A stretch of 38,069 bases of DNA from a virus, in the IMG/VR virus record IMGVR_UViG_3300029985_000089, positions 1 to 38,069 of that record. The stretch is one strand, 5' to 3'. Shown one piece after another: positions 3,970 through 38,069 of the stretch (the stretch's first letter is position 1; every line of letters starts with the position of its first letter). The notes beneath the pieces are model-generated. The model worked only from the letters and a program-made list of their open reading frames with translations. It did not search any database and was not told the DNA's origin. Made by a program: the position numbers and the translations under genes.

Positions 3970-4707
3970 TTAGAGCCCTTCGACACAAAGGTAGTTAAAT
4001 GAAGAAATGTCTGTAGCAACAGCTACCCCCGTAGCATCATAGGAGGTGACGGTAAGGGTCCCAGGCACTGAGGTGTCAGCAATGAGAAAGCCTAGGGCTA
4101 GTGATGCATTGAGGGCGCATCTTGAGAGAAAGACTCTCGTGTTGGCATCAACGATGGCAATAGCAATTGATTGAGTCCCTGCTACAAGGGCAGCAGTTCC
4201 AAGAGTTGCATTGGCGCCTTCTGTAATCCCCAATCCAGTGCCAGGTGCATCAAAGTCAAGATTCCCATTTGCAAGAGAAATATTCCCTGCCGTGACTGTG
4301 AGGTCTCCAGATGAAACTATGACTCCCCCAGCGCCCTTAGGGGTAAGAACAAGGTCAATTGCTGCATTTGTCCCAATAGCTGACCAAATATTTCCTGTCA
4401 AATCTGTGGATGTCGCCGCTGTTGACGTAACGAAATGCAGGGCTGTTGCTGCCCCTGTGACTGTTAGAGCTCCTACTACAGGAGTAAAAGAGCCTCCTAG
4501 ACTAAGCCACGAGGCAATTCCGCCAGAATTAGAGGCTAAGGCAAAGATTGTTCCCGCTACTGTATTGTCCCAGATTTGTGCAAAAGGATATCCAGTGTCA
4601 GAGGGGGTTGGGTCTCTGCGGGCGATTATAGGTTTTGGAAATTGATTGACAATAGGCTGAGGAAGGCCATAGAGGGATTCAGCTTGGGTTTGAAGATGCT
4701 TTACCAT
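3970..4707 (-). CDS. Tail fibre / proximal tail attachment protein, 245 aa
   Basis: First gene of the fibre operon. The N-terminal ~75 residues include NQFPKPIIARRDPTPSDTGY and FAQIWDNTVAGTIFALAS, a phrase found at the N-terminus of phage fibres whose remainder describes a generic 'dataset-like' beta repeat (here TVTGAATALHFVTSTAATSTDL, LTPKGAGGVIVSSGDLTVTAGNISLANGNLDF, split over 90-160). The C-terminus is compact (FLIADTSVPGTLTVTSYDATG). SD AAGGAG lies 7 nt before the ATG and a sigma70-like promoter lies 37-65 nt upstream, so this gene probably begins a separate tail-fibre transcript. Confidence 0.7.
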   Translation of the reverse strand: MVKHLQTQAESLYGLPQPIVNQFPKPIIARRDPTPSDTGYPFAQIWDNTVAGTIFALASNSGGIASWLSLGGSFTPVVGALTVTGAATALHFVTSTAATSTDLTGNIWSAIGTNAAIDLVLTPKGAGGVIVSSGDLTVTAGNISLANGNLDFDAPGTGLGITEGANATLGTAALVAGTQSIAIAIVDANTRVFLSRCALNASLALGFLIADTSVPGTLTVTSYDATGVAVATDISSFNYLCVEGL

Positions 4708-4743: not shown

Positions 4744-4772
4744 ACAATACCAGCTAATAGGAGATGTGTCAA
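4744..4772 (-). promoter_or_regulatory. Sigma70-like promoter of the fibre operon
   Basis: Minus-strand -35 TTGACA (4767-4772) and -10 TATTGT (4744-4749) separated by 17 nt. The predicted start near 4737 leaves a ~30-nt leader before the SD and ATG at 4707. The -10 is embedded in GTATTGTAAAGAAAA, which recurs upstream of the portal gene. Confidence 0.65.
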
Positions 4773-4821
4773 AAATAATTTATCAGAGTATTGTGAAGAT
4801 AGGTCATAGGGGGGCCAAAAG

Positions 4822-5013
4822 ATGGATTCTTTAATTTCTGGAATTATATCGTTTGTCAACATTGTCTGTCTTATGGCAGGATTTTACTTTGTCAAAATCT
4901 ATGTGCATAGAGAGCAAGAAGAAATGAGAAAATATAGAAAAATGACAGGGTTGGAAATTACTTTACTGAATAAAAAACTTGAGGGATTAAATGGCGGCGG
5001 TAATCACAGTTGA
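4822..5013 (+). CDS. Small membrane protein (holin-like), 63 aa
   Basis: Begins with ATG 4822 after a weak SD (AGGGGGGCC further upstream). Residues about 4-27 form one hydrophobic segment (SLISGIISFVNIVCLMAGFYFVKI); the rest is charged, with a short coiled-coil-like helix (EQEEMRKYRKMTG and LEITLLNKKLEGL). It opens a plus-strand group of four tiny membrane-protein genes inserted between two minus-strand virion blocks. Size, topology and position fit a holin or lysis accessory protein, but no family was recognised. Confidence 0.6.
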   Translation: MDSLISGIISFVNIVCLMAGFYFVKIYVHREQEEMRKYRKMTGLEITLLNKKLEGLNGGGNHS

Positions 5014-5074
5014 GATTTTGGTTGTGTCTATATGGCTTTGGATGCTATGGTTGCTGATCACTAAAAAGGAGTGA
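4991..5074 (+). CDS. 27-aa single-span membrane peptide
   Basis: ATG 4991 to TGA 5074, MAAVITVEILVV then SIWLWMLWLLITKKE: almost entirely one transmembrane helix with a KKE cytoplasmic-type tail. It overlaps the preceding gene by 23 nt in another frame and ends 1 nt before the next ATG, so translation is probably coupled. Its size is that of the smallest phage lysis or signalling peptides. The evidence is composition and gene packing only. Confidence 0.5.
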   Translation: MAAVITVEILVVSIWLWMLWLLITKKE

Positions 5075-5075
5075 G

Positions 5076-5303
5076 ATGATGGATATAGACTACGCAGTGA
5101 TCACTATCGTTGCAGCCAACGTAGGGTTGGCATGGGGAGTCATATCTTCAACCAGAAATTCTATTCAGGAAAATAGGAAGGAAATGATTTCTCTTTTCTT
5201 ACATAGCGATAAGAAAATAGATGAGATGGCAAAAGAGATGAAGGACTTTCATGGAAAGCTGTGCGAGATTGAAGGAATGAAGAAAATAGGAGACGCGAAA
5301 TAA
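5076..5303 (+). CDS. Small membrane protein with coiled tail, 75 aa
   Basis: Starts MMDIDYAVITIVAANVGLAWGVI: a single N-terminal hydrophobic segment (about 6-25), followed by a long charged helix (SIQENRKEMISLFLHSDKKI and DEMAKEMKDFHGKLCEIEGM). One transmembrane span plus coiled coil resembles small phage holin/antiholin or Rz-like proteins. A strong SD (AAAAAGGAGTG) precedes the ATG and the stop overlaps the next start (TAATG). Unnamed; the role is inferred from the cassette. Confidence 0.6.
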   Translation: MMDIDYAVITIVAANVGLAWGVISSTRNSIQENRKEMISLFLHSDKKIDEMAKEMKDFHGKLCEIEGMKKIGDAK

Positions 5304-5383
5304 TGGAAGCTATAGCACTGTTAGTTGTATTTTTGGTTTTATTCGCATTAGATACATTTACATCATATAGAATTTTTCATTAG
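5303..5383 (+). CDS. 26-aa single-span membrane peptide
   Basis: ATG 5303 overlaps the preceding stop as TAATG and the frame ends at TAG 5381-5383. The peptide MEAIALLVVFLVLFALDTFT plus a short basic/aromatic end (SYRIFH) is one transmembrane helix. It ends 3 nt before the convergent stop of the ejection-protein gene. It completes a set of four overlapping or coupled membrane-protein genes. The length and coupling suggest it is real, but confidence is limited by its size. Confidence 0.5.
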   Translation: MEAIALLVVFLVLFALDTFTSYRIFH

Positions 5384-5386
5384 TAA

Positions 5387-7150
5387 TTATTCAGGCCAAT
5401 CAATATTTTTATATGCTTCAGGATTTTCTTTTTTCATTTTGTCTTTAATTGTTTTTAAAGCAGTAAGAGCCAATTTTGGACTATCTTGCATCATGGCCCG
5501 AGCACTGGTTCTCAAAACCCCCTGCCACCGTGGATTCATTAAAAGCTGATTGGAAAGAAAATCCCTAGCGAATGATACGCCTGCTCCTATGACTGCGCCA
5601 GCAGCTGGATGGCCAATTATTGCCCCACCAGCTCCAGCAAGAATAGTTGCTATAAAACCTTGTGCAGTAGTCCCATGAGCCCAAGATCTTTCCAGATTTC
5701 TCCAACCAACGTTATTAATAAAATCTAATCTTCTTTCATACAATCTATTTCCAAATCTGAAATCTCTTCCTAAATCCCTATCAACATTAGTTATAGTTCT
5801 TGAAATTCTTGTATTAAGAGGCTGTAAAAGATTCATTTGTGAAGGTCTATTTTCTCTAAATACCCTGTTTATCCCTCTGTAAGCTAACATTAGCTGTTCA
5901 GCGTCAACAGGCCCATCCCCTATATCTCTAATTATTGAATTTAAATAATTTACTACAGCCTGGTTGTGTGGCTCGTCTCCAGGTTCTCTCATCAATCTAT
6001 CTCTCATTCTTTCTGCGTAATTTCTCAAAGAATTCGCTTGATTTTGAGGAACAATGACACCTCTACCTCTTTCATGTACAGAATTAATAAATTGACTTGT
6101 CCCTCTTTCAGCCCCTGCGATAGCTGCTCTATTAGCTTCCGTTTCAGCAGTATGTGCTCCAAGCCTTCTGGTTGCCTGCTCACCTTGCAATAAAGGCGTT
6201 AATTCTTCGTCTGTAAGACCAGCACGTTGTCCAGCCGCATAAACAACCCTCTGCTCTCTAGTCATGTCTTCTGGATTTAGTCCTTCGGACAATCTTCCAG
6301 ATTGAGAAACTGCAGCAATTAAGATTCTAGCTGCTGCCTTCTTGTTTGGACTTGCTCCTTGATTTTCCATTTCATCAATAAGTTTTCTAGCAGTGTAAGT
6401 TCCAACGCCGCTCCTAACCATTCGATTAAATAAAGACCTACCAGCCCCAGGACCTAATAAAGACATAAAAAATTCCATGTCTTCTTCTTGCCCTCTTTCT
6501 TTTTTAGACTCAGGCTTAGTGGATGGAAATTTTTCTTCTATTCCCTGTTTTAGCTCTTCGGTGGTAGGAAACCTCCCTCCCTGTGGTTCCAAACCCCATT
6601 TTTTCAACTGGCTCCTGGCTTTTTCTGGATCTTCTCCAAAAGCTTTTGCAATCAAATTTTCGCCAAATTGCTGTGTTGATCCAGCAATACCTAAAGGGAA
6701 AGCAACGCCAACTTTTGCAGCCCTACCTAAAGTTCTTCTATCTTCTTCTTCTTTTGTTCTTGGAGGAGATGAAATAGCTTCTTGGTACCCAGGTTGATCA
6801 AAAAGATAGTTTAACCCCTGCGCTTGATCTTCATGTAGCTTTTGTGCATATTTTGTCGCTTCTTCTGGTGAAGAAAAAATTCCTAAATGCTTTCCAGTCT
6901 GCTGATATTGTTGGATTGTTTCTAAATCAGATAATTTACGACCATCATCGCTAATGGTAGGTAATAAAACTTCGTTACCATCAAAGTTAAAAGATTTTGA
7001 AGCAACTGTGCTTATAGACCCATCTGAATTTTTTACCTTAGGCCTATTTGTAAGATCAATATTTCCAGGTTGTTTATATTGCTCATCACTTTGTGAAGAA
7101 GCATCATTTAACATCAAGTCTACGATTGAAGTATCATTTTTATTTTTCAT
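5387..7150 (-). CDS. Large internal virion / ejection-type protein, ~587 aa
   Basis: Start chosen at ATG 7150, which overlaps the upstream stop by 11 nt; a longer frame reaches 7198 but would lie further inside the upstream gene. Residues about 29-115 carry a conserved phage module: GNIDLTNRPKVKNSDGSIST, VLLPTISDDGRKLSD, QYQQTGKHLGIFSSPEEATK and YAQKLHEDQ. This module is known from large phage structural and internal proteins. Long charged helices follow, then near residues 490-530 a glycine-zipper hydrophobic stretch (ATILAGAGGAIIGHPAAGAV) that could insert in membranes during DNA ejection. Last of three large proteins (5387, 7140, 8665) resembling a podovirus ejection-protein set. Enzyme activity is not evident. 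Confidence 0.65.
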   Translation of the reverse strand: MKNKNDTSIVDLMLNDASSQSDEQYKQPGNIDLTNRPKVKNSDGSISTVASKSFNFDGNEVLLPTISDDGRKLSDLETIQQYQQTGKHLGIFSSPEEATKYAQKLHEDQAQGLNYLFDQPGYQEAISSPPRTKEEEDRRTLGRAAKVGVAFPLGIAGSTQQFGENLIAKAFGEDPEKARSQLKKWGLEPQGGRFPTTEELKQGIEEKFPSTKPESKKERGQEEDMEFFMSLLGPGAGRSLFNRMVRSGVGTYTARKLIDEMENQGASPNKKAAARILIAAVSQSGRLSEGLNPEDMTREQRVVYAAGQRAGLTDEELTPLLQGEQATRRLGAHTAETEANRAAIAGAERGTSQFINSVHERGRGVIVPQNQANSLRNYAERMRDRLMREPGDEPHNQAVVNYLNSIIRDIGDGPVDAEQLMLAYRGINRVFRENRPSQMNLLQPLNTRISRTITNVDRDLGRDFRFGNRLYERRLDFINNVGWRNLERSWAHGTTAQGFIATILAGAGGAIIGHPAAGAVIGAGVSFARDFLSNQLLMNPRWQGVLRTSARAMMQDSPKLALTALKTIKDKMKKENPEAYKNIDWPE

Positions 7151-8660
7151 TTGTAGTCCAAGATAAATATTGATCTTTTGTTGGAATTTTGTACCCAAGA
7201 TTTTTTAAATCATTTAACGCTTCTGCTTTATTTCCATTATGCAATTTGACAAAGGCTGAAAGTTTTTTAGGAGTTATATATTCACCATTTACAGCTTTGT
7301 CTTTTGAATACAGTTGTTCTGCATCAGAAAATTTTTCTTTAATTAAAGAAAATTCATATCCTAATTTTTCATCTCGATCTTTTCTGTATTTATCAAGATC
7401 TTCGTTTACATATTTTCTAATTTTCCCAAGTTTTGATAAAGACTGTCCATATACGTCAGAATATTTATCAAAAAGCTCTATTTCTTTTTTATCGATGTCA
7501 ACATTTCTTTTTAGAGCTGCCAGGACTGTTTCTTGGGAATCTTTTTTTGAACCTACAGTAGGAAACATCGAAGTAAATCTTTGCTCTATCCATTGATTAA
7601 CTCCTTTTGCTGAAAGTTGAGTAAGAGAGCCAATAGTAAACTCTTTTGAAGCTAAATTTAAAAGTTGGCTAGCTGAGGTTCTGGCAGGATCAATGTTCCA
7701 TCTATTAGCAACAAATTGTGACCAAGAATTAGTATCGCCAGACTCAATAGCTGTTTTAGCTAAATTAAGTGAATCTTCTTCCTTTCTAACTCTGCCTCGT
7801 AAAAGATCTACTTCGTCTTTATAGTCTTTAGATACATCTTTTAACTCTTCTCTTTCTGATTTATCCTTATTCCATTGAAATTTTTCTCTATTAAGGTCAG
7901 CGTTTCTTTCTGCAGCAGAAGTATTTCTTTCGCCCCTCTTAGCCGCTTGCTGTCTGTTGTAAGCATCTTCAAGTTGTTTTTGAACCTGCGCAGGCTGTCC
8001 ATCTTTTAAAGCATCCAACTGTTCTATAGACATATCTCCAAGTCTTTTGCCTTGAAAAGAAGCTAAATCTAAGCCATTTCCTTGCCCTTTAGTAGGCTCT
8101 GGAGGTACGACCTCTGCTGGAGTAGCTGCAGGCTCTTCTTGGCCCATGGCAGGTTGATATTGAGGCAAAGGCCCTTGCTGTCCTGGCTGAGCATACTCTG
8201 GCATCCCTGGTATCTGTCCAGGCTCTTGATTCGCCATTCCCATTCTCTGAGCAGCAGCTTGGTTAGCAGCTATTGACTGTGCTGTAGGAGCTGGCTGCTG
8301 TACAGGCTCAGGAGCTTCGAATCTCCCACCATTTATCAATTTAGACAAAACCATAGAAGCTGGCGAAGACTCTGACAATTGCTTGGCTAAATCAATTTGC
8401 TGTGGAGCTTCAAAATTCCCCAACGCCTCAGACCATTCTGGATGTTTGTAAGCTTGAGCAAGCCCTATTGCCTGCTGTTTTCTTAACCTTCCACCTAATT
8501 CAGCTTGCCTATCTTCCTTTTGCTGATCATAATACCCTTGAATAGTATTCTGCAGAGACTTCCCTAGAGACTTCCCTACAGGTTCTAACTGCTGAAAAAT
8601 TTGCTCAGACTTACTTGGTCTTTGCTGTGTAAAATATTCTGGTAAAAATTGAATTGACAT
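7140..8660 (-). CDS. Gln-rich internal virion protein, 506 aa
   Basis: No family is recognised. The N-terminal ~130 residues are helical; residues ~105-200 are Pro/Gln/Ala-rich and disordered-looking (EPVQQPAPTAQSIAANQ, GQQGPLPQYQPAMGQEEPAA); the remainder is strongly helical and charged with coiled-coil character (KDEVDLLRGRVRKEEDSLNL, YGQSLSKLGKIRKYVNEDL). Composition and its place between two other large Q/A-rich proteins fit a podovirus ejection protein stored inside the capsid. It follows the upstream gene by 4 nt and overlaps the downstream start by 11 nt, so the three are probably made together. Confidence 0.6.
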   Translation of the reverse strand: MSIQFLPEYFTQQRPSKSEQIFQQLEPVGKSLGKSLQNTIQGYYDQQKEDRQAELGGRLRKQQAIGLAQAYKHPEWSEALGNFEAPQQIDLAKQLSESSPASMVLSKLINGGRFEAPEPVQQPAPTAQSIAANQAAAQRMGMANQEPGQIPGMPEYAQPGQQGPLPQYQPAMGQEEPAATPAEVVPPEPTKGQGNGLDLASFQGKRLGDMSIEQLDALKDGQPAQVQKQLEDAYNRQQAAKRGERNTSAAERNADLNREKFQWNKDKSEREELKDVSKDYKDEVDLLRGRVRKEEDSLNLAKTAIESGDTNSWSQFVANRWNIDPARTSASQLLNLASKEFTIGSLTQLSAKGVNQWIEQRFTSMFPTVGSKKDSQETVLAALKRNVDIDKKEIELFDKYSDVYGQSLSKLGKIRKYVNEDLDKYRKDRDEKLGYEFSLIKEKFSDAEQLYSKDKAVNGEYITPKKLSAFVKLHNGNKAEALNDLKNLGYKIPTKDQYLSWTTNEK

Positions 8661-16876: not shown

Positions 16877-18418
16877 TTATGCCAATGTGCATCGTAGATT
16901 TAAAAGCCACTGATCGTTGAGGATACGAGGAACCTCAGCGAATACGAATCCCACACTAGCATTTTGGGCTAGAGCGCCGCTAAAAATGGGCGGACGGTAT
17001 ATGAACCGTGCAGAATGCCCATCTTGTTCGATAGCTGCGAAACTTTCTCTGCCACAACAGAAAATATTGTAGCAATCAGCTCCAAGCATTGACGCGTTAG
17101 GAGTTACAGAACCGACACTAGAAAGTAAAAATCTAATATTGGCGCATGTACCCCATTCTGCATCGAGGGTGGACTGTTGATTAGGGTAGTTCCATTTCTG
17201 GGTGAATCCATTGACATTGTCCAACTGCCCTATGAGGTTTGTGTGGCCAAGGCCAAAGTAAGCGTCGCGTACTGGCGCTGTTCCAAATCGATTTTCCCCT
17301 TCGACTCCCGTCAAAAAGCTGTAGGCATTATTCCCACGTAGCGTTCTGACGACGTAGTCTACGTCTGTGCGTGTGATTTCTGTTGGGTTATCACCATCAT
17401 TACCACCGACACAGTTCACTAATGTCGCTGTTGCGCTCAGCATGTCCCGCATCAACTGATCTTCAGTTTGACGGAGAGATACCATTCTGTTACTTTTGTG
17501 ACCAGTCGGTGACAAATCGTCACCTACTGGCGGGCCGACTTCTTCGAATCAGCCTCAGCGATTTTATTTATTGTCGCTGTTCAGACTATCGCATCTCCTT
17601 TCGGAGCTTTCTCATTTAGTCGTTCAGGCTGGATAATTTTTAACAAATCGTTCTTGAACTTTTCTTTGTCACATTTATTATTGTCTGTACATGTGAGGGT
17701 CATACAATAAAAAGCACCACCACCGTGTAAGGTTAATGATAATTCTCTTAAAAGTTCATACATACAATTGTTACATAACATATCCTTGCCCCTTGTCTTC
17801 CATGCTTATGCAGCTTCCTGGAGTTCCAAGTCAATAAGAGAAAGTTTATCCTGGGCATACTTTTTACCCAGCCTTTGCGTAGCTTCATTTAATACAGGAT
17901 CTTGGTTTTGTAAGGTTACCTGCTCGTTGAGCAATATGTAGGTACCGTAAAAATCCATTTTCGCATCAATATTCAATGCGGTCAAATTTTGGGGCGCTGG
18001 GTCTACACCCAAGTTCCCCAACGGCACAGGACAAGTTGCCAATGGATTATACCGTCGCATTCTACAATTTTGTTACTTCCCATCGCTGGGAGGTGAAGCC
18101 TATTGCACTTCACTCACTGCATTTCTGCAATGTTCAGAGCACCGCATCCCCGAAGGGTCTTCTCGCTTGCTACGTTCAGGCTGTATGTGTTATACTTGCC
18201 CCTTGTTGCCTCCAGCATTACCTGGTAAGGTTTTCAAGTCAATCAGAGAAGATTTATCGACCCCTAGACTAGTTAAGGGTCGTACCACCATTACGTGGCA
18301 TTTGCTTCAGTTCGGCCGGGATCTTATGGATCATATAAGGCACAGGAACTGAAAGCAACTTGTACGAGAAGGTCTGCTGGACGGGAGCAGGGAGCGTACT
18401 CGTGGTTGTTATACTCAT
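16877..18418 (-). CDS. Major capsid protein, N4-gp56 family, split by two group I introns
   Basis: Three exons: 18418-18276 (143 nt), 18064-17866 (199 nt), 17482-16877 (606 nt). They join in frame into 315 residues, a normal length for N4-gp56-type capsid proteins (HK97 fold, capsid shell). Exon 1 ends GGTTL, exon 2 reads RMRRYNPLA...YGTYILL...EATQRLG, exon 3 continues VSLRQTEDQLMRDML...CVGGNDGDNPTEITRTDVD. These match the family's successive landmarks (GGKTIxFRRY, YGAYVxxSD, EATQLLG, LTxDxxxRDxL). Unspliced, exon 1 reaches a stop two codons into intron 1 and exon 2 is stopped in intron 2. The start has no clear SD (AAAAGATTAAAAAAATG), odd for a major virion protein; it lies 34 nt after the scaffold gene. 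Splicing is predicted from sequence only. Confidence 0.85.
17483..17865 (-). ncRNA. Group I intron 2 in the capsid gene, 383 nt
   Basis: Self-splicing type intron. P1: exon end CTGGGT pairs with GCCCAG (U-G at the splice site). P3: CTTTCTC with GAGAAAG. P7: GACTA in CCTGAACGACTAAATG with TAGTC in GATGCGATAGTCTGAAC; this R/S pair closely resembles the T4 td intron. P8: CTCC-GAAA-GGAG. P6: GGATA/TATCC, its loop expanded by a 66-codon ORF. P9 region: GGTGAC/GTCACC. The 3' boundary G (17483) is set by reading-frame continuity (RLG|VSLRQ); P10 is weak (GTAT with GTAT, two wobbles). Confidence 0.88.
17581..17781 (-). CDS. Intron-encoded 66-aa cysteine-rich protein
   Basis: Begins at ATG 17781 inside the P6 loop of intron 2 and ends in the intron's S element. 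MLCNNCMYELLRELSLTLHG is followed by FYCMTLTCTDNNKCDKEKF and a basic C-terminus; Cys at 3, 6, 26, 31 and 37 could bind metal. It has no LAGLIDADG, GIY-YIG, HNH or His-Cys motif, so it is not a recognisable homing endonuclease; it may be a remnant or an unrelated small protein. AAGGGGC, 6 nt before the ATG, could act as SD, but it lies in the intron core and may be hidden in the folded RNA. Confidence 0.5.
   Translation of the reverse strand: MLCNNCMYELLRELSLTLHGGGAFYCMTLTCTDNNKCDKEKFKNDLLKIIQPERLNEKAPKGDAIV
18065..18275 (-). ncRNA. Group I intron 1 in the capsid gene, 211 nt
   Basis: ORF-less small group I intron. P1: exon CGACCCT pairs 7 bp with GGGGTCG (final pair U-G). The guide TCTAGGGGTC matches the joined exons GACCCT-TAGA at every position except the U-G, so P1 and P10 both form. 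P3: TCTTCTC with GAGAAGA. P8: CCC-TTCG-GGG. P7: AGCA/TGCT, with a G-C pair beyond a bulged T. P6: GTAT/ATAC. P9-type hairpin TCCCA-GCGA-TGGGA. Ends in G at 18065. Shares TATTGACTTG- and GGGGCAAG-type core blocks with intron 2. Confidence 0.88.
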
Positions 18419-19987: not shown

Positions 19988-20503
19988 TTATTGGAATATA
20001 GACCAATCAAACGAGTAGGAATCCCTATCCATTTTCCTTGTGAAGCACTCCTCAACCCATTTCACGAGCTCAGAGTCATAGTTTTCTGGACATCGTGCGA
20101 TTGACAAGCATTCATCGAAGGAAGGAAGTGACCACAAACACTTGATTTGCCCTTTGTTGCCATCTATAAGATATAAGGTTTTGGTGTAGTTGCTATATTG
20201 CTCCATCATATCGAAGGCATGAGGAGGAGTTTGCCTAGCTACAAACCAGTTCCTGAGAATGTTGTTGGCCCAGAACTCTTTCTTTGTAAGGACAAAAATG
20301 TAGAAAGGACTGTCGAATTTTGCCTGATTTTCCTCAATGGTCTCTTCCATGAACTTAGCATAATCTGGACCAAATGCGTCTAAAGTTTCGCCAACAGTCT
20401 GATCAGCTTGTGGCTTAGAGAGGATGTCATATACAGCTTGGCCTACACGCTTGCCTTTGTATCCAAATCTGTTGTAGGCATATTTGTCAGGTTCTGCGAG
20501 CAT
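19988..20503 (-). CDS. Hypothetical protein, 171 aa
   Basis: Soluble-looking protein with conserved-type blocks YAYNRFGYKGKRVGQAVYDI, FYIFVLTKKEFWANNILRNW, YSNYTKTLYLIDGNKGQIKC and LWSLPSFDECLSIARCPENY. No catalytic motif identified. It begins at ATG 20503 with a very strong SD (AAGGAGG) and overlaps the C-terminal end of the methylase remnant by 61 nt in another frame. It is the last gene of the portal-proximal minus-strand group. Proteins of this kind appear in phage genomes without assigned function. Confidence 0.6.
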   Translation of the reverse strand: MLAEPDKYAYNRFGYKGKRVGQAVYDILSKPQADQTVGETLDAFGPDYAKFMEETIEENQAKFDSPFYIFVLTKKEFWANNILRNWFVARQTPPHAFDMMEQYSNYTKTLYLIDGNKGQIKCLWSLPSFDECLSIARCPENYDSELVKWVEECFTRKMDRDSYSFDWSIFQ

Positions 20504-20836
20504 GGGGCCTCCTTCTTGCCATAGTCAAAACAATTTTCTAATTCATTTCCCCATATGTCCCAGTTAGGAGTTTTTTGTCGAGCAAATAGTTCAATGCGAG
20601 GGAGGTTGCCATGAACGTCAACGATCATGTCACGAAATTCTGCTGGCTTTTCTGAATGATTGCATATTCTTGGCTGTAGAAACCAAGCTGAGTCCTTTCT
20701 TTTGACAAAACCAATTTTCCCCTTTCAAAAGTTCTGAAATCGTCCAACTGCCCCCATCCACTTCCCAAGGAGGATCTGCATAGATGATCTGATAAGTATG
20801 TTTTGGGATTTGGTCAAAGCCAACGATCACTGCCAT
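20443..20836 (-). pseudogene. MT-A70 adenine methyltransferase remnant (internal deletion plus frameshift)
   Basis: ATG 20836 (SD GGAGGAGGGAGC) encodes MAVIVGFDQIPKHTYQIIYA then DPPWEVDGG, the N-terminal catalytic DPPW motif of MT-A70 N6-adenine methylases, but the frame soon degenerates. In another frame comes the family C-terminus: GKIGFVKRKDSAWFLQ, NHSEKPAEFRDMIVDV, LPRIELFARQKTPNWDIWGN. The middle of the fold, roughly 70-80 residues between DPPW and GK..KRKD, is absent, and the two frames overlap without an ATG for the second part. About 130 codons remain of ~200. Probably inactive; a sequencing deletion is less likely because both an indel and a large gap are needed. Confidence 0.75.
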
Positions 20837-34786: not shown

Positions 34787-36081
34787 TGCAATCACTCTCT
34801 GACAAACAGCTCTTTTCCTTAAGTGATTCAGACGCAAGAATGAATATTTGGGAGGGAGCTGTTCGCTCAGGGAAGACCTATATCAGTCTTTGGAGATGGT
34901 TAAAGGAACTTACCTTTGGCCCTCCTGGTGAGTATTGTATGATTTCCAGGACCTACGACACATTCAAAAGAAACATTCTACCTCAGCTCATCCATATGAT
35001 TGGATGCCAGGATGTTAGATACTACTCTGGCAAGAGAGAGATGCATATTTTTGGTAAAAATATTCATGTTGTGGGGGCCGACGATGAACGCAGTGAGAGC
35101 AAAATTAGGGGAGCCACCTTCCAATCTGCCTATGTAGACGAGGCCACAATTATTCCTGAAAGTGTATTTAGGATCCTTATCAGTCGGTGTGCGATGAAAG
35201 GGGCGAGGATCTTCGCCACCACTAACCCTGACAGCCCCTATCATTGGCTAAAAAAAGACTTCCTCACAGACAATCCTGACGTCAAAAGCTGGAAGTTCAC
35301 TCTTGATGATAATCCCGAGCTCACGCAAGACGAAAAAGACTACCTCAGAAGACAATATAAAGGCATTTGGCATCAAAGATTTATTGAAGGAAAATGGGTA
35401 CAGGCTGAGGGAGCTATCTATGATTTCTTTGACTCTGACATTCATGTCATTGACTTTCCGCCTGGTCAAGCTGAGTTTTATATTGTTGGCGTGGACTATG
35501 GAACCACTAATCCTTGCTCTTTCGTTCTAATAGGGATAAACAGATCCAAATATCCTAATATCTGGGTTGAAGATGTTTACTACTGGGACAGCAAGGTAAA
35601 GCAGAGGCAAAAAACAGATAGCGAATACGCTGAAGACCTAAAAACCTTCATTCAGGGACTATATGTCAAAGCCATATATATTGACCCATCAGCAGCCAGT
35701 TTCAAGCTGGAACTAGGGCGTGAGGGAATTTCTAACTTATTTGATGCAGAAAATGAAGTACTAGATGGAATTCGCTTAACGAGCAAATTTCTCGCCAACG
35801 GTACATTAAAGATCTGTAGGAAGTGCGAGCCTTTGATCAAGGAGATACAGGGGTATGTTTGGGATCCTAAGTGTGGAAAGACTGGCGAGGATAAGCCTTT
35901 GAAGGACAGAGATCACAGTTTGGATGCGATGCGATATGCGCTCTATACACACTTTTTTGGGAAAGAACAAACGAGGATGACTCCCCAAGACCTAGAAAGG
36001 CTGTATGCTGAAGCCATGGGAGGGCCAGGTCTTCCAGCCCCATTTAGGGACGTGACAGGACTCGAAAATAGGTTTATTTAG
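34786..36081 (+). CDS. terL: Terminase large subunit, 431 aa
   Basis: DNA-packaging motor ATPase and headful nuclease. Start at ATG 34786, which overlaps the preceding stop; a GTG three codons earlier is possible. Walker A GAVRSGKT (24-31), Walker B SAYVDEA (115-120), coupling motif ARIFATTNPDS (~140-150), nuclease Asp in VGVDYGTTNP (Asp237), YIDPS (Asp300) and DHSLDAMRYALY (Asp376, Asp380). Length and order match phage TerL. It stands alone on the plus strand; the portal is 10.8 kb away and opposite. It ends convergently with the 36074 gene, overlapping by 8 nt. Confidence 0.92.
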   Translation: MQSLSDKQLFSLSDSDARMNIWEGAVRSGKTYISLWRWLKELTFGPPGEYCMISRTYDTFKRNILPQLIHMIGCQDVRYYSGKREMHIFGKNIHVVGADDERSESKIRGATFQSAYVDEATIIPESVFRILISRCAMKGARIFATTNPDSPYHWLKKDFLTDNPDVKSWKFTLDDNPELTQDEKDYLRRQYKGIWHQRFIEGKWVQAEGAIYDFFDSDIHVIDFPPGQAEFYIVGVDYGTTNPCSFVLIGINRSKYPNIWVEDVYYWDSKVKQRQKTDSEYAEDLKTFIQGLYVKAIYIDPSAASFKLELGREGISNLFDAENEVLDGIRLTSKFLANGTLKICRKCEPLIKEIQGYVWDPKCGKTGEDKPLKDRDHSLDAMRYALYTHFFGKEQTRMTPQDLERLYAEAMGGPGLPAPFRDVTGLENRFI

Positions 36082-36280
36082 ATATCAATCTGCCAAGTTT
36101 TTTGTCAATTTTAGTAACAGATTTAATCTCTAGATCTTGTAAATGTTTATTTAGAGCGTCACTAGTTGGGGCAGCAGGCTCTTTTTCATTTTTAATTATA
36201 TAGGTAATTCCGGAGGCTACAAGTATCAATACGACGAAAAGAACACATGCCCAAAATTTGGCATTCGAAGGGAGTTCCAT
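36074..36280 (-). CDS. Membrane protein, possible inner spanin, 68 aa
   Basis: Residues about 6-30 form one transmembrane helix (KFWACVLFVVLILVASGITY), followed by IIKNEKEPAAPTSDALNKHL then DLEIKSVTKIDKKLGRLISK, a short charged periplasmic-type helix. It is 8 nt downstream of a lipoprotein gene on the same strand. A type II membrane protein next to a small lipoprotein fits a two-component spanin pair (outer membrane disruption in host lysis), although inner spanins are usually longer. It overlaps the terminase end. Confidence 0.5.
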   Translation of the reverse strand: MELPSNAKFWACVLFVVLILVASGITYIIKNEKEPAAPTSDALNKHLQDLEIKSVTKIDKKLGRLISK

Positions 36281-36288
36281 AATTTCTC

Positions 36289-36453
36289 CTATATAGTTTT
36301 GACAGGGACTTCAACCTCAGCGGAAGCGTCTGTCTTAGCTGTTTCATCGACTAAATCATTAGCATAACCATGAGTGTCAGCGATGGTTATATTGATTGTA
36401 CAGGAACTTAGGATGAGGGATGACAAACCAAAAGCTAAGATAAGAAATTTCAT
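36289..36453 (-). CDS. Small lipoprotein, possible outer spanin, 54 aa
   Basis: Start at ATG 36453, SD GAGGTCAAG; an upstream in-frame ATG would put the SD in the gene. Signal peptide MKFLILAFGLSSLILSSC with lipobox LSSC (Cys18), then INITIADTHGYANDLVDETA and KTDASAEVEVPVKTI. A short lipoprotein with acidic tail is the usual form of an outer spanin. The adjacent 36074 membrane protein could be its partner. Implies a diderm host if it works as a spanin. Confidence 0.6.
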   Translation of the reverse strand: MKFLILAFGLSSLILSSCTINITIADTHGYANDLVDETAKTDASAEVEVPVKTI

Positions 36454-36514
36454 CTTGACCTCGTTTTTCCTTTGGTATATCATCTTCCTGTCTTAATACA
36501 TAGGAGGATTTAAT

Positions 36515-36868
36515 ATGTCCAATATTCAGCTAGAATTATTTGAAATTTCAGAAACTGAAAGACTAAAAGACGAGATTCGAGGATTGGAAAAGAGCCTCGG
36601 GAATGTGCGTAGGGGCATGTTCAGCAGGCATGACGAATTAGAAAAGAAACTTGTGGAGACGAGGGAGAAGTGTGAAAAATTTGAAGACGCGATCCATCAA
36701 ATAACAGAGCGCATGAGGCATTATGAGGAGGCTTTATTCCCTGTGCTAGCAGGGGGAGTTGGAGCTGCTGGTGTTGAGCCAGGGCTGAGTTCTATGTTTA
36801 TGCCTGTCTCTTCTTTTATGAGATCTTCGCAGGCTTCTTCTACAGGATTATTTGCTCCCCAGAAGTAG
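36515..36868 (+). CDS. Coiled-coil phage protein, 117 aa
   Basis: MSNIQLELFEISETERLKDE, IRGLEKSLGNVRRGMFSRHD, VETREKCEKFEDAIHQITER: an N-terminal coiled coil, a type of small phage protein (LELFEISETERL...VRRGLFARH) without known function. The C-terminal ~49 residues (after residue 68) lie antisense to the 36721-36930 gene and are Ser/Met/Gly-rich, so that part may be less constrained. SD AGGAGGATTTAAT precedes the ATG. Confidence 0.65.
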   Translation: MSNIQLELFEISETERLKDEIRGLEKSLGNVRRGMFSRHDELEKKLVETREKCEKFEDAIHQITERMRHYEEALFPVLAGGVGAAGVEPGLSSMFMPVSSFMRSSQASSTGLFAPQK

Positions 36869-36930
36869 ATAGAGAGTAGGCCTACTATGATGCAGGCGCC
36901 TACGATGATAGCTAGAAGAGTAATGCTCAT
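36721..36930 (-). CDS. Small membrane protein overlapping antisense, 69 aa
   Basis: MSITLLAIIVGACIIVGLLS then IYFWGANNPVEEACEDLIKE and ETGINIELSPGS, with a Pro/Ala/Ser tail. One N-terminal transmembrane span, then the motif WGxNNPVEExxExLIKxxTGxxIxLSPG known in small phage membrane proteins. SD GAGGTCTCC lies 5 nt before ATG 36930. Its 3' 148 nt overlap the plus-strand gene at 36515 on the opposite strand; both frames look real. Confidence 0.6.
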   Translation of the reverse strand: MSITLLAIIVGACIIVGLLSIYFWGANNPVEEACEDLIKEETGINIELSPGSTPAAPTPPASTGNKASS

Positions 36931-37002: not shown

Positions 37003-38069
37003 TTACCCAATGAGCGACACACAGAAAGACGTATATTCGGGAGTCCCATAGACAGTCACATTTTTTACCCCTCCTGCTATATTTATCAGCACTGAGAGCG
37101 TATCATTCACATTGAGATAGCATTGGGTGCTAAGGTTCCAATAATTGCTATGTTGAGCAAGAAGGTCGTAAATCCCTGGATAAGGATTTGATTGCTGCAT
37201 AATTAGACCAGCCCCATTGAGGATGATATAACAGCCTGAAAGGAAGTGGGTGTTGTCAATGTTGTTTGCAGTCACATGCGCTGTTACTGCATAGACACCA
37301 GCCTGGGAAGCCTTAAAGACGCCAGTAGTGTTGTTATAATTTGATTTTGTGTCATATAGGACATTATCAAACACTATCTGATATACAGTGTTGTCCCCTG
37401 TAACTCCTCCAGTAGTGGCATTTCGATAAGCTTTCATCATGGGCTTATCAGGGATGTTTCCTGTTAAAGAAACTTGCCCTGCAGCAACGTTGAATTGTGA
37501 CGCTGTATATGTGCTAACTCCCTTCCCCCCTCCATTCGTTGCGTTGTACGCTGTAATGGTCGAAGTGTTTGTGAGGGCTACGCCATCAACTTCTATGCCT
37601 TGAGTTGTGTCCCCAAGGATCTTAAGGTTTCCTGTGATGTCAGGACCTACGACTACGTTATCATTCCCTTTGACAGTCAGAATTCCAGCAGCTCCAGCGA
37701 TTGCAGAGACGAATCCATTAACAACAGTAAAGTTGGTAGAGTTGAACGATGCTACACCCTTTGTAGCTGTAAGAGCAGTTCCAGCAGTGGCATTAGCAGC
37801 ATTGATTGTGACAGTGTGCCCTGCTAAGTTTCCTATAGTATTTAGCCCTTGATTTGCTGTCGTCAACACATTGATGTTTCCAGCTCCATCTGGAAGTACG
37901 ACGTGCCCATCGTCAGTGGTTAGGGAATCCATGTTTCCTGTCCCTCCTGTGCTGGAGACAAAACCTCCAACCACAGTAAAGTCTGCAGAGTTAAAACAGG
38001 AAACCCCTTTCTGTGCATGGGCGACATCAACTCCTGCAGTGGCGTTTTCTACTGATATAGTGATTTCAT
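37003..38069 (-). CDS. Tail fibre with C1q-like tip (N-terminally incomplete)
   Basis: The frame continues to the window edge, so the start is missing (an internal GTG at 37974 is not it). Fibre shaft: repeated ~70-residue units with ATAGxxxxxxKGVSCFNSADFTVVGGFVSSTG and KGVASFNSTNFTVVNGFVSA, split by motifs such as LTTDDGHVVLPDGAGNI and GNDNVVVGPDITGNL. The C-terminal ~135 residues (YRNATTGGVTGDNTVYQIVF, YAVTAHVTANNIDNTHFLSG, NVNDTLSVLINIAGGVKNVT, FCVSLIG) look like a C1q/TNF-like jelly-roll knob, typically trimeric and receptor-binding. Likely a host-range determinant. Confidence 0.7.
   Translation of the reverse strand, partial: EITISVENATAGVDVAHAQKGVSCFNSADFTVVGGFVSSTGGTGNMDSLTTDDGHVVLPDGAGNINVLTTANQGLNTIGNLAGHTVTINAANATAGTALTATKGVASFNSTNFTVVNGFVSAIAGAAGILTVKGNDNVVVGPDITGNLKILGDTTQGIEVDGVALTNTSTITAYNATNGGGKGVSTYTASQFNVAAGQVSLTGNIPDKPMMKAYRNATTGGVTGDNTVYQIVFDNVLYDTKSNYNNTTGVFKASQAGVYAVTAHVTANNIDNTHFLSGCYIILNGAGLIMQQSNPYPGIYDLLAQHSNYWNLSTQCYLNVNDTLSVLINIAGGVKNVTVYGTPEYTSFCVSLIG

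Follow-up and report, generated by a model that had tools for sequence, protein, structure and literature searches.

A variable islet of small membrane-protein genes in a phage clade and its possible role in superinfection exclusion

The four plus-strand frames at positions 4822-5383 of the window (the whole stretch of 38,069 nucleotides of viral DNA that was analysed) are real genes, each for a protein with one hydrophobic segment, and they lie in an islet whose content is exchangeable at a recurrent place among related, uncultured phages. By analogy, this islet may be an inner-membrane superinfection-exclusion module that works like SieA of phage P22, although no homolog was detected, and we favour this reading tentatively, as plausible but somewhat short of probable. 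The islet and its surroundings comprise the following features:

3970-4707, minus strand: tail-fibre-like gene flanking the islet, its role assigned by reading and with no family; a relative flanks the islet in L003/L019.
4744-4772, minus strand: TTGACA-17-TATTGT, a sigma-70-like promoter for the divergent tail gene; same site in L019.
4764-4815, plus strand: leader, possible islet promoter region; GTGTCAAAAA ... TATTGT/TATGGT ... GGGG, common to the window, L003, L027 and partly L028.
4822-5013, plus strand: gene of a 63-residue protein with one N-terminal membrane helix followed by a charged predicted coil; homologs in L003 (73-74% identical), L027, L028, L031, L042 and L065.
4991-5074, plus strand: gene of a 27-residue membrane peptide, overlapping the 63-residue gene by 23 nt; 78% identity and the same overlap in L019/L003.
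5076-5303, plus strand: 75-residue member of the KDFHGRLCxIEER family, with a membrane helix and a predicted cytoplasmic coiled coil.
5303-5383, plus strand: gene of a 26-residue terminal membrane peptide, entered through a TAATG junction; a tiny hydrophobic ORF is equally placed in 21 of 70 loci, the window included.
5387-7198, minus strand: putative internal virion or ejection protein gene flanking the islet, with an in-frame ATG at 7150; similar placement in relatives.

Four overlapping genes in the window

The original prediction described four overlapping frames of 63, 27, 75 and 26 codons, joined by a 23-nt overlap (63/27), a 1-nt gap (27/75) and TAATG (75/26), and the window reads exactly so. 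A single hydrophobic helix had been proposed for each product, and one hydrophobic segment was found in each; the genes on both sides are on the minus strand, and no endolysin is adjacent to the cassette, again as described. By eye, AG-rich stretches resembling Shine-Dalgarno sites precede the starts of the 27-, 75- and 26-residue genes, with a weak one ahead of the 63-residue gene, and neither a lipobox nor a lipoprotein is seen among the four proteins.

The leader was compared by alignment with L003 and by eye with L027 and L028, and no sigma-70 match is present on its plus strand, that of the islet. Three promoter-like sites were found against 2.8 in shuffled sequences, which is no excess; the promoter of the divergent tail gene is accepted because its site is conserved in L019 and not because of the number of sites. 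On the other flank, the product of 5387-7198 has no Pfam family, and its putative role in ejection is proposed from its place and from the similarly placed genes of relatives.

Homologs of the 63-residue protein occur in seven distinct records, that is, the window (counted together with a 99.99% copy of it) and the six loci given above. In a profile search over the collected loci, for which the 27-residue frames of L003 and L027 were built into the profile, a frame like that of the 27-residue peptide overlaps the end of the 63-residue homolog in six of the seven. The partner in L027 is a 25-residue relative, those in L042 (E 0.0025), L031 (E 0.012) and L065 (E 0.58) are weak and rest partly on position, and L028 has none. 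The closest comparison comes from the sister phage G001 (L003, L019), whose portal is 87% identical to that of the window and in which the 63-residue protein (73% identical) and the 27-residue peptide keep the same overlap. Between the two phages, 8 of 84 bases differ in the 27-codon frame and 47 of 192 in the 63-codon frame. The islet of G001 consists of 63, 27 and 31 residues, a 31-residue membrane peptide standing in place of the 75- and 26-residue products, and no member of the 75-residue family is present in its record, which is linear and may be incomplete. Two further candidates, L004 and L005, were rejected as relatives of the 63-residue protein, their matches being short and lying inside a 333-residue protein. 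A genome scan with alignment A1 of the 63-residue protein gave no confirmed match, and a DNA-level search in phages gave nothing useful.

Other parts of the window were also noted, all on the minus strand. The major head protein gene (16877-18394) is in three pieces (approximately 18275-18394, 17809-18063 and 16880-17500) separated by inserts of about 210 and 300 nt that look like mobile introns, with no Rfam match; this gene is whole in G007 and interrupted at other places in G001. Two adjacent small frames at 20443-20836 together resemble a broken MT-A70 methyltransferase, one of them matching PF05063 below the cut-off, and a tail-fibre-like protein with a C1q-type domain (PF00386, 8e-7) is encoded at 37003-37974. 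At 36074-36483, a 64-residue lipoprotein-like frame and a 68-residue one-helix protein adjoin the large terminase as a possible spanin pair, the lipoprotein family being found in 10 of 25 phage sets and the helix protein in 2 of 25. Finally, a 69-residue helix protein with a motif like NPxEExxExxIKxETG, found in 8 of 25 phage sets, is encoded at 36721-36930.

The KDFHGRLCxIEER family and its variable place

The 75-residue protein belongs to a family of 153 confirmed matching stretches in IMG/VR, searched with a seed in which the window protein was aligned with its relative in G007; the best 80 of the 153 were kept as loci. In members, a single membrane helix at the N-terminus is followed by a coiled coil, predicted to be cytoplasmic, with the motif KDFHGRLCxIEER at the C-terminus. 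In reading this motif a selection effect applies, since KDFHG was the search pattern in IMG/VR and DFHGRLC that of the genome scan, and the member filter demanded R/K/Q/L, hydrophobic, C, any, hydrophobic, leaving free only the choice of R or K and the following E. With this filter, members were found in 76 of the 80 loci, as well as in the window and L022; L031, L034, L041 and L068 have no motif match and stand outside the family counts, and L026 was dropped as a duplicate. The 77 loci without L026 carry one member in 60 cases, two in nine, three in five and five in three.

The motif includes the published trimer motif R-h-x-x-h-E, to which parallel trimerisation is ascribed, with exceptions (PMC3653964). 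Among 100 distinct members, [RK]hxxhE follows the helix in 97 against 5.6 in shuffled sequences, most of the motif being fixed by the member filter; R opens the pattern in 95 members and K in the other 5, and 98 have E as its last residue. Other islet proteins, picked by hand and not motif-filtered, show the same pattern in 17 of 22 cases, against 1.9 in shuffles, and it is present in 58 of 654 other ORFs taken as comparison. F, H, L and C are invariant in the 41 rows of alignment A3, which were chosen with the motif filter. AlphaFold2 models the 75-residue protein as a single helix (residues 6-74, mean pLDDT 92.9), and a simple charge count over the 100 members gives N-out/C-in for 80, the opposite for 15 and an unclear result for 5. 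Both the membrane topology and the trimerisation of these proteins are predicted. A Foldseek search of the predicted model against viral models gave no match, and two family members searched against 50,697 phage records found nothing. Against Pfam and PHROGs, matches are weak and scattered: 41 members touch four Pfam families, and one of the 41 matches the 'hol-like chemotaxis' phrog_2658 at 9e-4, which was judged weak.

In 21 of 70 loci, the start of a hydrophobic ORF of 18-45 codons lies no more than 25 nt from the stop of the last family gene; with shuffled downstream sequence, 1.52 loci would be expected. In a control with ORFs of 120 residues or more, such a neighbour accompanies 8 of 429 stops. 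In L027, a 28-residue frame is equally placed and was judged by eye to be similar to the 26-residue peptide, which itself has no match in PHROGs. The original prediction had been staked on the conservation of its two shortest frames in related phages: the 27-codon frame is conserved, whereas what recurs of the 26-codon frame is its position and character alone. Because the 63- and 27-residue pair is conserved together with its overlaps and the terminal ORF recurs so far above its expectation, the frames are beyond chance. Non-functional debris or chance frames would be in keeping with lengths of 26-27 codons, below the usual calling limits, and with an islet missing in some relatives, but this explanation is contradicted by the conserved pair, by the 153 family stretches and by the terminal ORF, and was rejected as highly improbable.

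Regarding the place of the family, 27 of the 75 other family loci have a tail-fibre-like cluster, 26 of whose 28 genes are upstream and on the opposite strand. In 21 of the 75, a gene of the 455-residue class, also on the opposite strand, is located downstream. The islets listed hold from one to several small membrane ORFs and sometimes, by eye, a small DNA-binding-like ORF. Family copies are also present at other places in several genomes; for example, that of G007 sits between the portal and scaffold genes and not beside a tail fibre. In that relative (L022, 15788-16180, minus strand), the family gene is followed by a 38-residue membrane peptide and an 89-residue lipoprotein-like frame.

The variation of the islet was followed through the portal. 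The portal family phrog_156 is matched by all 47 long records (the window, G001, G007 and 44 family loci), one of them only at 6e-6. Portal matches numbered at least 593; from the best 80, nineteen relatives of 36-41 kb, all those reaching 36 kb, were selected, which hence lie near the window. The 75-residue family is present in six of the nineteen (weakest match 2.5e-5), or in 7 of 20 when L199, left out as already known to carry the family, is counted. Sixteen of the 19 were read. A clear helix-plus-coil islet is present in nine (G288, G290, G291, G292, G293, G294, G296, G297 and G298), its proteins running opposite to the virion genes. In six of the 13 records read without a family match (G291, G292, G294, G296, G297 and G298) these proteins have other tails, such as RLSRLEGAFEERGRWES. 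Six further records (G287, G289, G301, G302, G303 and G304) have a different or unclear islet, and G300 has none; as the records are of the linear class and possibly incomplete, absences are not proof. Given these six islets with other tails and that of G001 without the family, the content is exchangeable at a recurrent place, and the islet is accessory, with several sequence types at one place.

A link to Chlamydiota

The host of this clade is probably a chlamydia-like bacterium, judging from sequence relationships. The family was found in six loci of the genome collection, three assigned to Chlamydiae/Chlamydiia, one to a 'bacterium' of the same phylum, one to Alphaproteobacteria and one to Thermoproteota, and the only two on contigs above 6 kb are both assigned to Chlamydiae (L108, on a 36-kb contig that is itself phage-like, and L110, on one of 81 kb). 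The scan of the whole genome collection serves here as the host control, the phylum-level search covering Chlamydiota alone. Of the 232 genomes in that search, 10 have a family match at E<=0.001, which in four is no better than 2e-5 to 5e-4; a match to the portal of the window is likewise present in 10, with up to 63% identity. The five portal contigs that were read are phage-sized (35-41 kb) or a 5.5-kb piece, for which reason the portal link is a binning link. Stronger host evidence comes from lone family genes in Chlamydiota that lie beside aroB/aroDE (81 kb), rpe/efp/accBC (71.6 kb) and sucCD/ftsY (8 kb), neighbours that were named from reading their translations and not by family search. 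Also in Chlamydiota, L187 (2242-3478, contig 97 of G085) holds three close family-like genes, two with tails ending in CCMIKDSSQLKKVE.

What is linked to Chlamydiota are portal and family relatives, and by extension the window phage may itself infect this phylum. The chlamydiaphages named in a table of a review on Chlamydia trachomatis are all small ssDNA microviruses (PMC8466579). Neither tailed phages of Chlamydiae nor the 75-residue family were seen described in the literature searched, which covered titles and the openings of abstracts, with subscription papers outside it, and a literature search for the family motif gave no match. If the host link holds, these obligate intracellular bacteria would have a large clade of tailed phages, and with it a membrane module to study and a group of phages that yielded no known endolysin.

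Exclusion, lysis and host takeover

The islet would be a swappable superinfection-exclusion, or host-conversion, module of a probably short-tailed phage clade. Its small proteins would sit in the inner membrane, the N-terminus facing outwards and the coiled coil, a trimer, reaching into the cytoplasm. When a second, related phage assembled its ejection proteins into a conduit for DNA delivery, the islet proteins would obstruct it; genes of differing specificity would for that reason be kept beside the ejection and tail-fibre genes. The ejection-protein neighbours, the chlamydia-like host and the exclusion function are steps that we infer. Lone copies on chlamydial contigs fit a protective gene tolerated by the host. 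Since no integrase was found among the scanned window proteins, exclusion would need early expression in infection. Against this proposal, the PHROGs and Pfam matches of the islet proteins name no exclusion family (SieA being compared through such family matches only), and PADLOC gives matches only above E 0.01. Moreover, up to five paralogs per locus are more than exclusion seems to need, seven of the 16 relatives read lack the helix-plus-coil islet or have it in a different or unclear form, and the family gene of G007 is placed elsewhere.

The original prediction offered a holin/antiholin or an exclusion system. The second option fits the position, variability and accessory distribution of the islet better; the first fits poorly, and a plain holin/antiholin pair was rejected in view of the lack of a recognised endolysin in the records examined, the one to five paralogs per locus, the family's presence in 6 of 19 relatives and the lone chromosomal copies. 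No convincing holin family was matched in PHROGs or Pfam, phrog_2658 being the only weak case. One-helix holins and the XhlA/XhlB lysis pair resemble the islet proteins in being small, membrane-bound and partly charged or coiled-coil; the islet proteins differ in lacking a recognised endolysin and a Pfam match and in their N-terminal helix. XhlA, which we take to be PF10779, has its helix at the C-terminus, and PF10779 is not among the four Pfam families touched by the 41 members. Two-component spanins also combine a helix with a coiled coil, and the lipoprotein-like frame after the family gene of G007 recalls them. However, the inner spanin subunit is N-in/C-out, with a periplasmic coil and an outer lipoprotein partner, whereas the islet coil is predicted to be cytoplasmic; spanins were rejected given the N-out/C-in prediction by charge count in 80 of 100 members and the lack of a lipoprotein among the four window genes.

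A broader form of lysis, or egress, would have the helix-plus-coil proteins and tiny peptides oligomerise late and make the inner membrane permeable, in a host with little or no murein sacculus and with no endolysin involved. This reading is possible, if doubtful. Its main support is that none of the 47 long records matches PF00959, PF01510, PF01464 or PF13539 while all match the portal family; 14 control genomes served as the sole control, and each of these four endolysin families is matched in 1 to 8 of them. In addition, no wall hydrolase appears at E<=1e-5 among the Pfam matches of 142 representative proteins from 23 phages (sets A5 and A6), drawn from 293 cluster representatives of at least 95 residues after exclusion of 12 clusters taken for virion genes, the eight commonest and four others; the PHROGs scan and a first Pfam scan, both of set A4, covered 25 of the families matched, and Pfam was repeated on A5 and A6. 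No endolysin is among the matches of the scanned window proteins either, and the endolysin-free status covers recognised types only. The missing endolysin raises the lysis reading, without placing lysis in the islet. Lysis genes also vary at fixed places. On the other side, the islet lies on the strand opposite to the virion genes, paralogs reach five per locus with extra copies elsewhere in some genomes, the family match is missing in 13 of the 19 portal-selected relatives and in G001, lone copies sit on chromosomal contigs, and the spanin-like lipoprotein/membrane pair is located elsewhere, at 36074-36483. According to the title of a cited paper, some chlamydiae do possess murein sacculi. 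A more specific version, in which tailed phages of chlamydia-like hosts would exit without a murein hydrolase, trimeric coiled-coil arrays and tiny peptides dismantling the envelope and chromosomal lone copies giving dominant-negative protection, appears unlikely. Equally, it seems rather improbable that these are membrane-anchored host-takeover or scaffold proteins, neither excluding nor lysing, which would anchor replication or assembly or bind host division or secretion proteins. The number of fixed residues in the tail motif does exceed what the packing of a coiled coil would require, which points to a fixed partner in the cytoplasm; part of this comes from selection by the motif filter. 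Accessory, exchangeable content at a recurrent place would, however, be unusual for a general takeover function. Exclusion is ranked above lysis because of this accessory and exchangeable content, the strand opposite to the virion genes, the multiple copies in some phages and the lone chromosomal copies.

Superinfection exclusion by the islet can finally be compared with two kinds of known system. T5 Llp and the Cor-type exclusion lipoproteins are small envelope proteins with genes near a receptor-binding gene, which that of Llp adjoins, and in this the islet is similar (PMC9586334). In contrast, Llp is described there as a lipoprotein acting on an outer-membrane receptor (PMC9586334), whereas the window proteins have no lipobox by eye. 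The islet proteins differ from SieA in having one helix and 26-75 residues, with several paralogs at some loci, and exclusion is assigned to them by analogy. P22 SieA has several helices. It is also larger, residues 145-157 being cited in its description, which places sieA between ejection gene 16 and tailspike gene 9 and finds it in 22 of 66 P22-like phages as three types about 25% identical (PMC10883804). The likenesses are those of a probably short-tailed phage with an inner-membrane protein (shown for SieA, predicted for the islet), of a gene between ejection-protein and tail-spike or tail-fibre genes (the ejection neighbours of the islet being putative), of an accessory locus with several sequence types at one place (6 of 19 for the family, other types in 6 of 13), and of a conserved motif predicted to be cytoplasmic.
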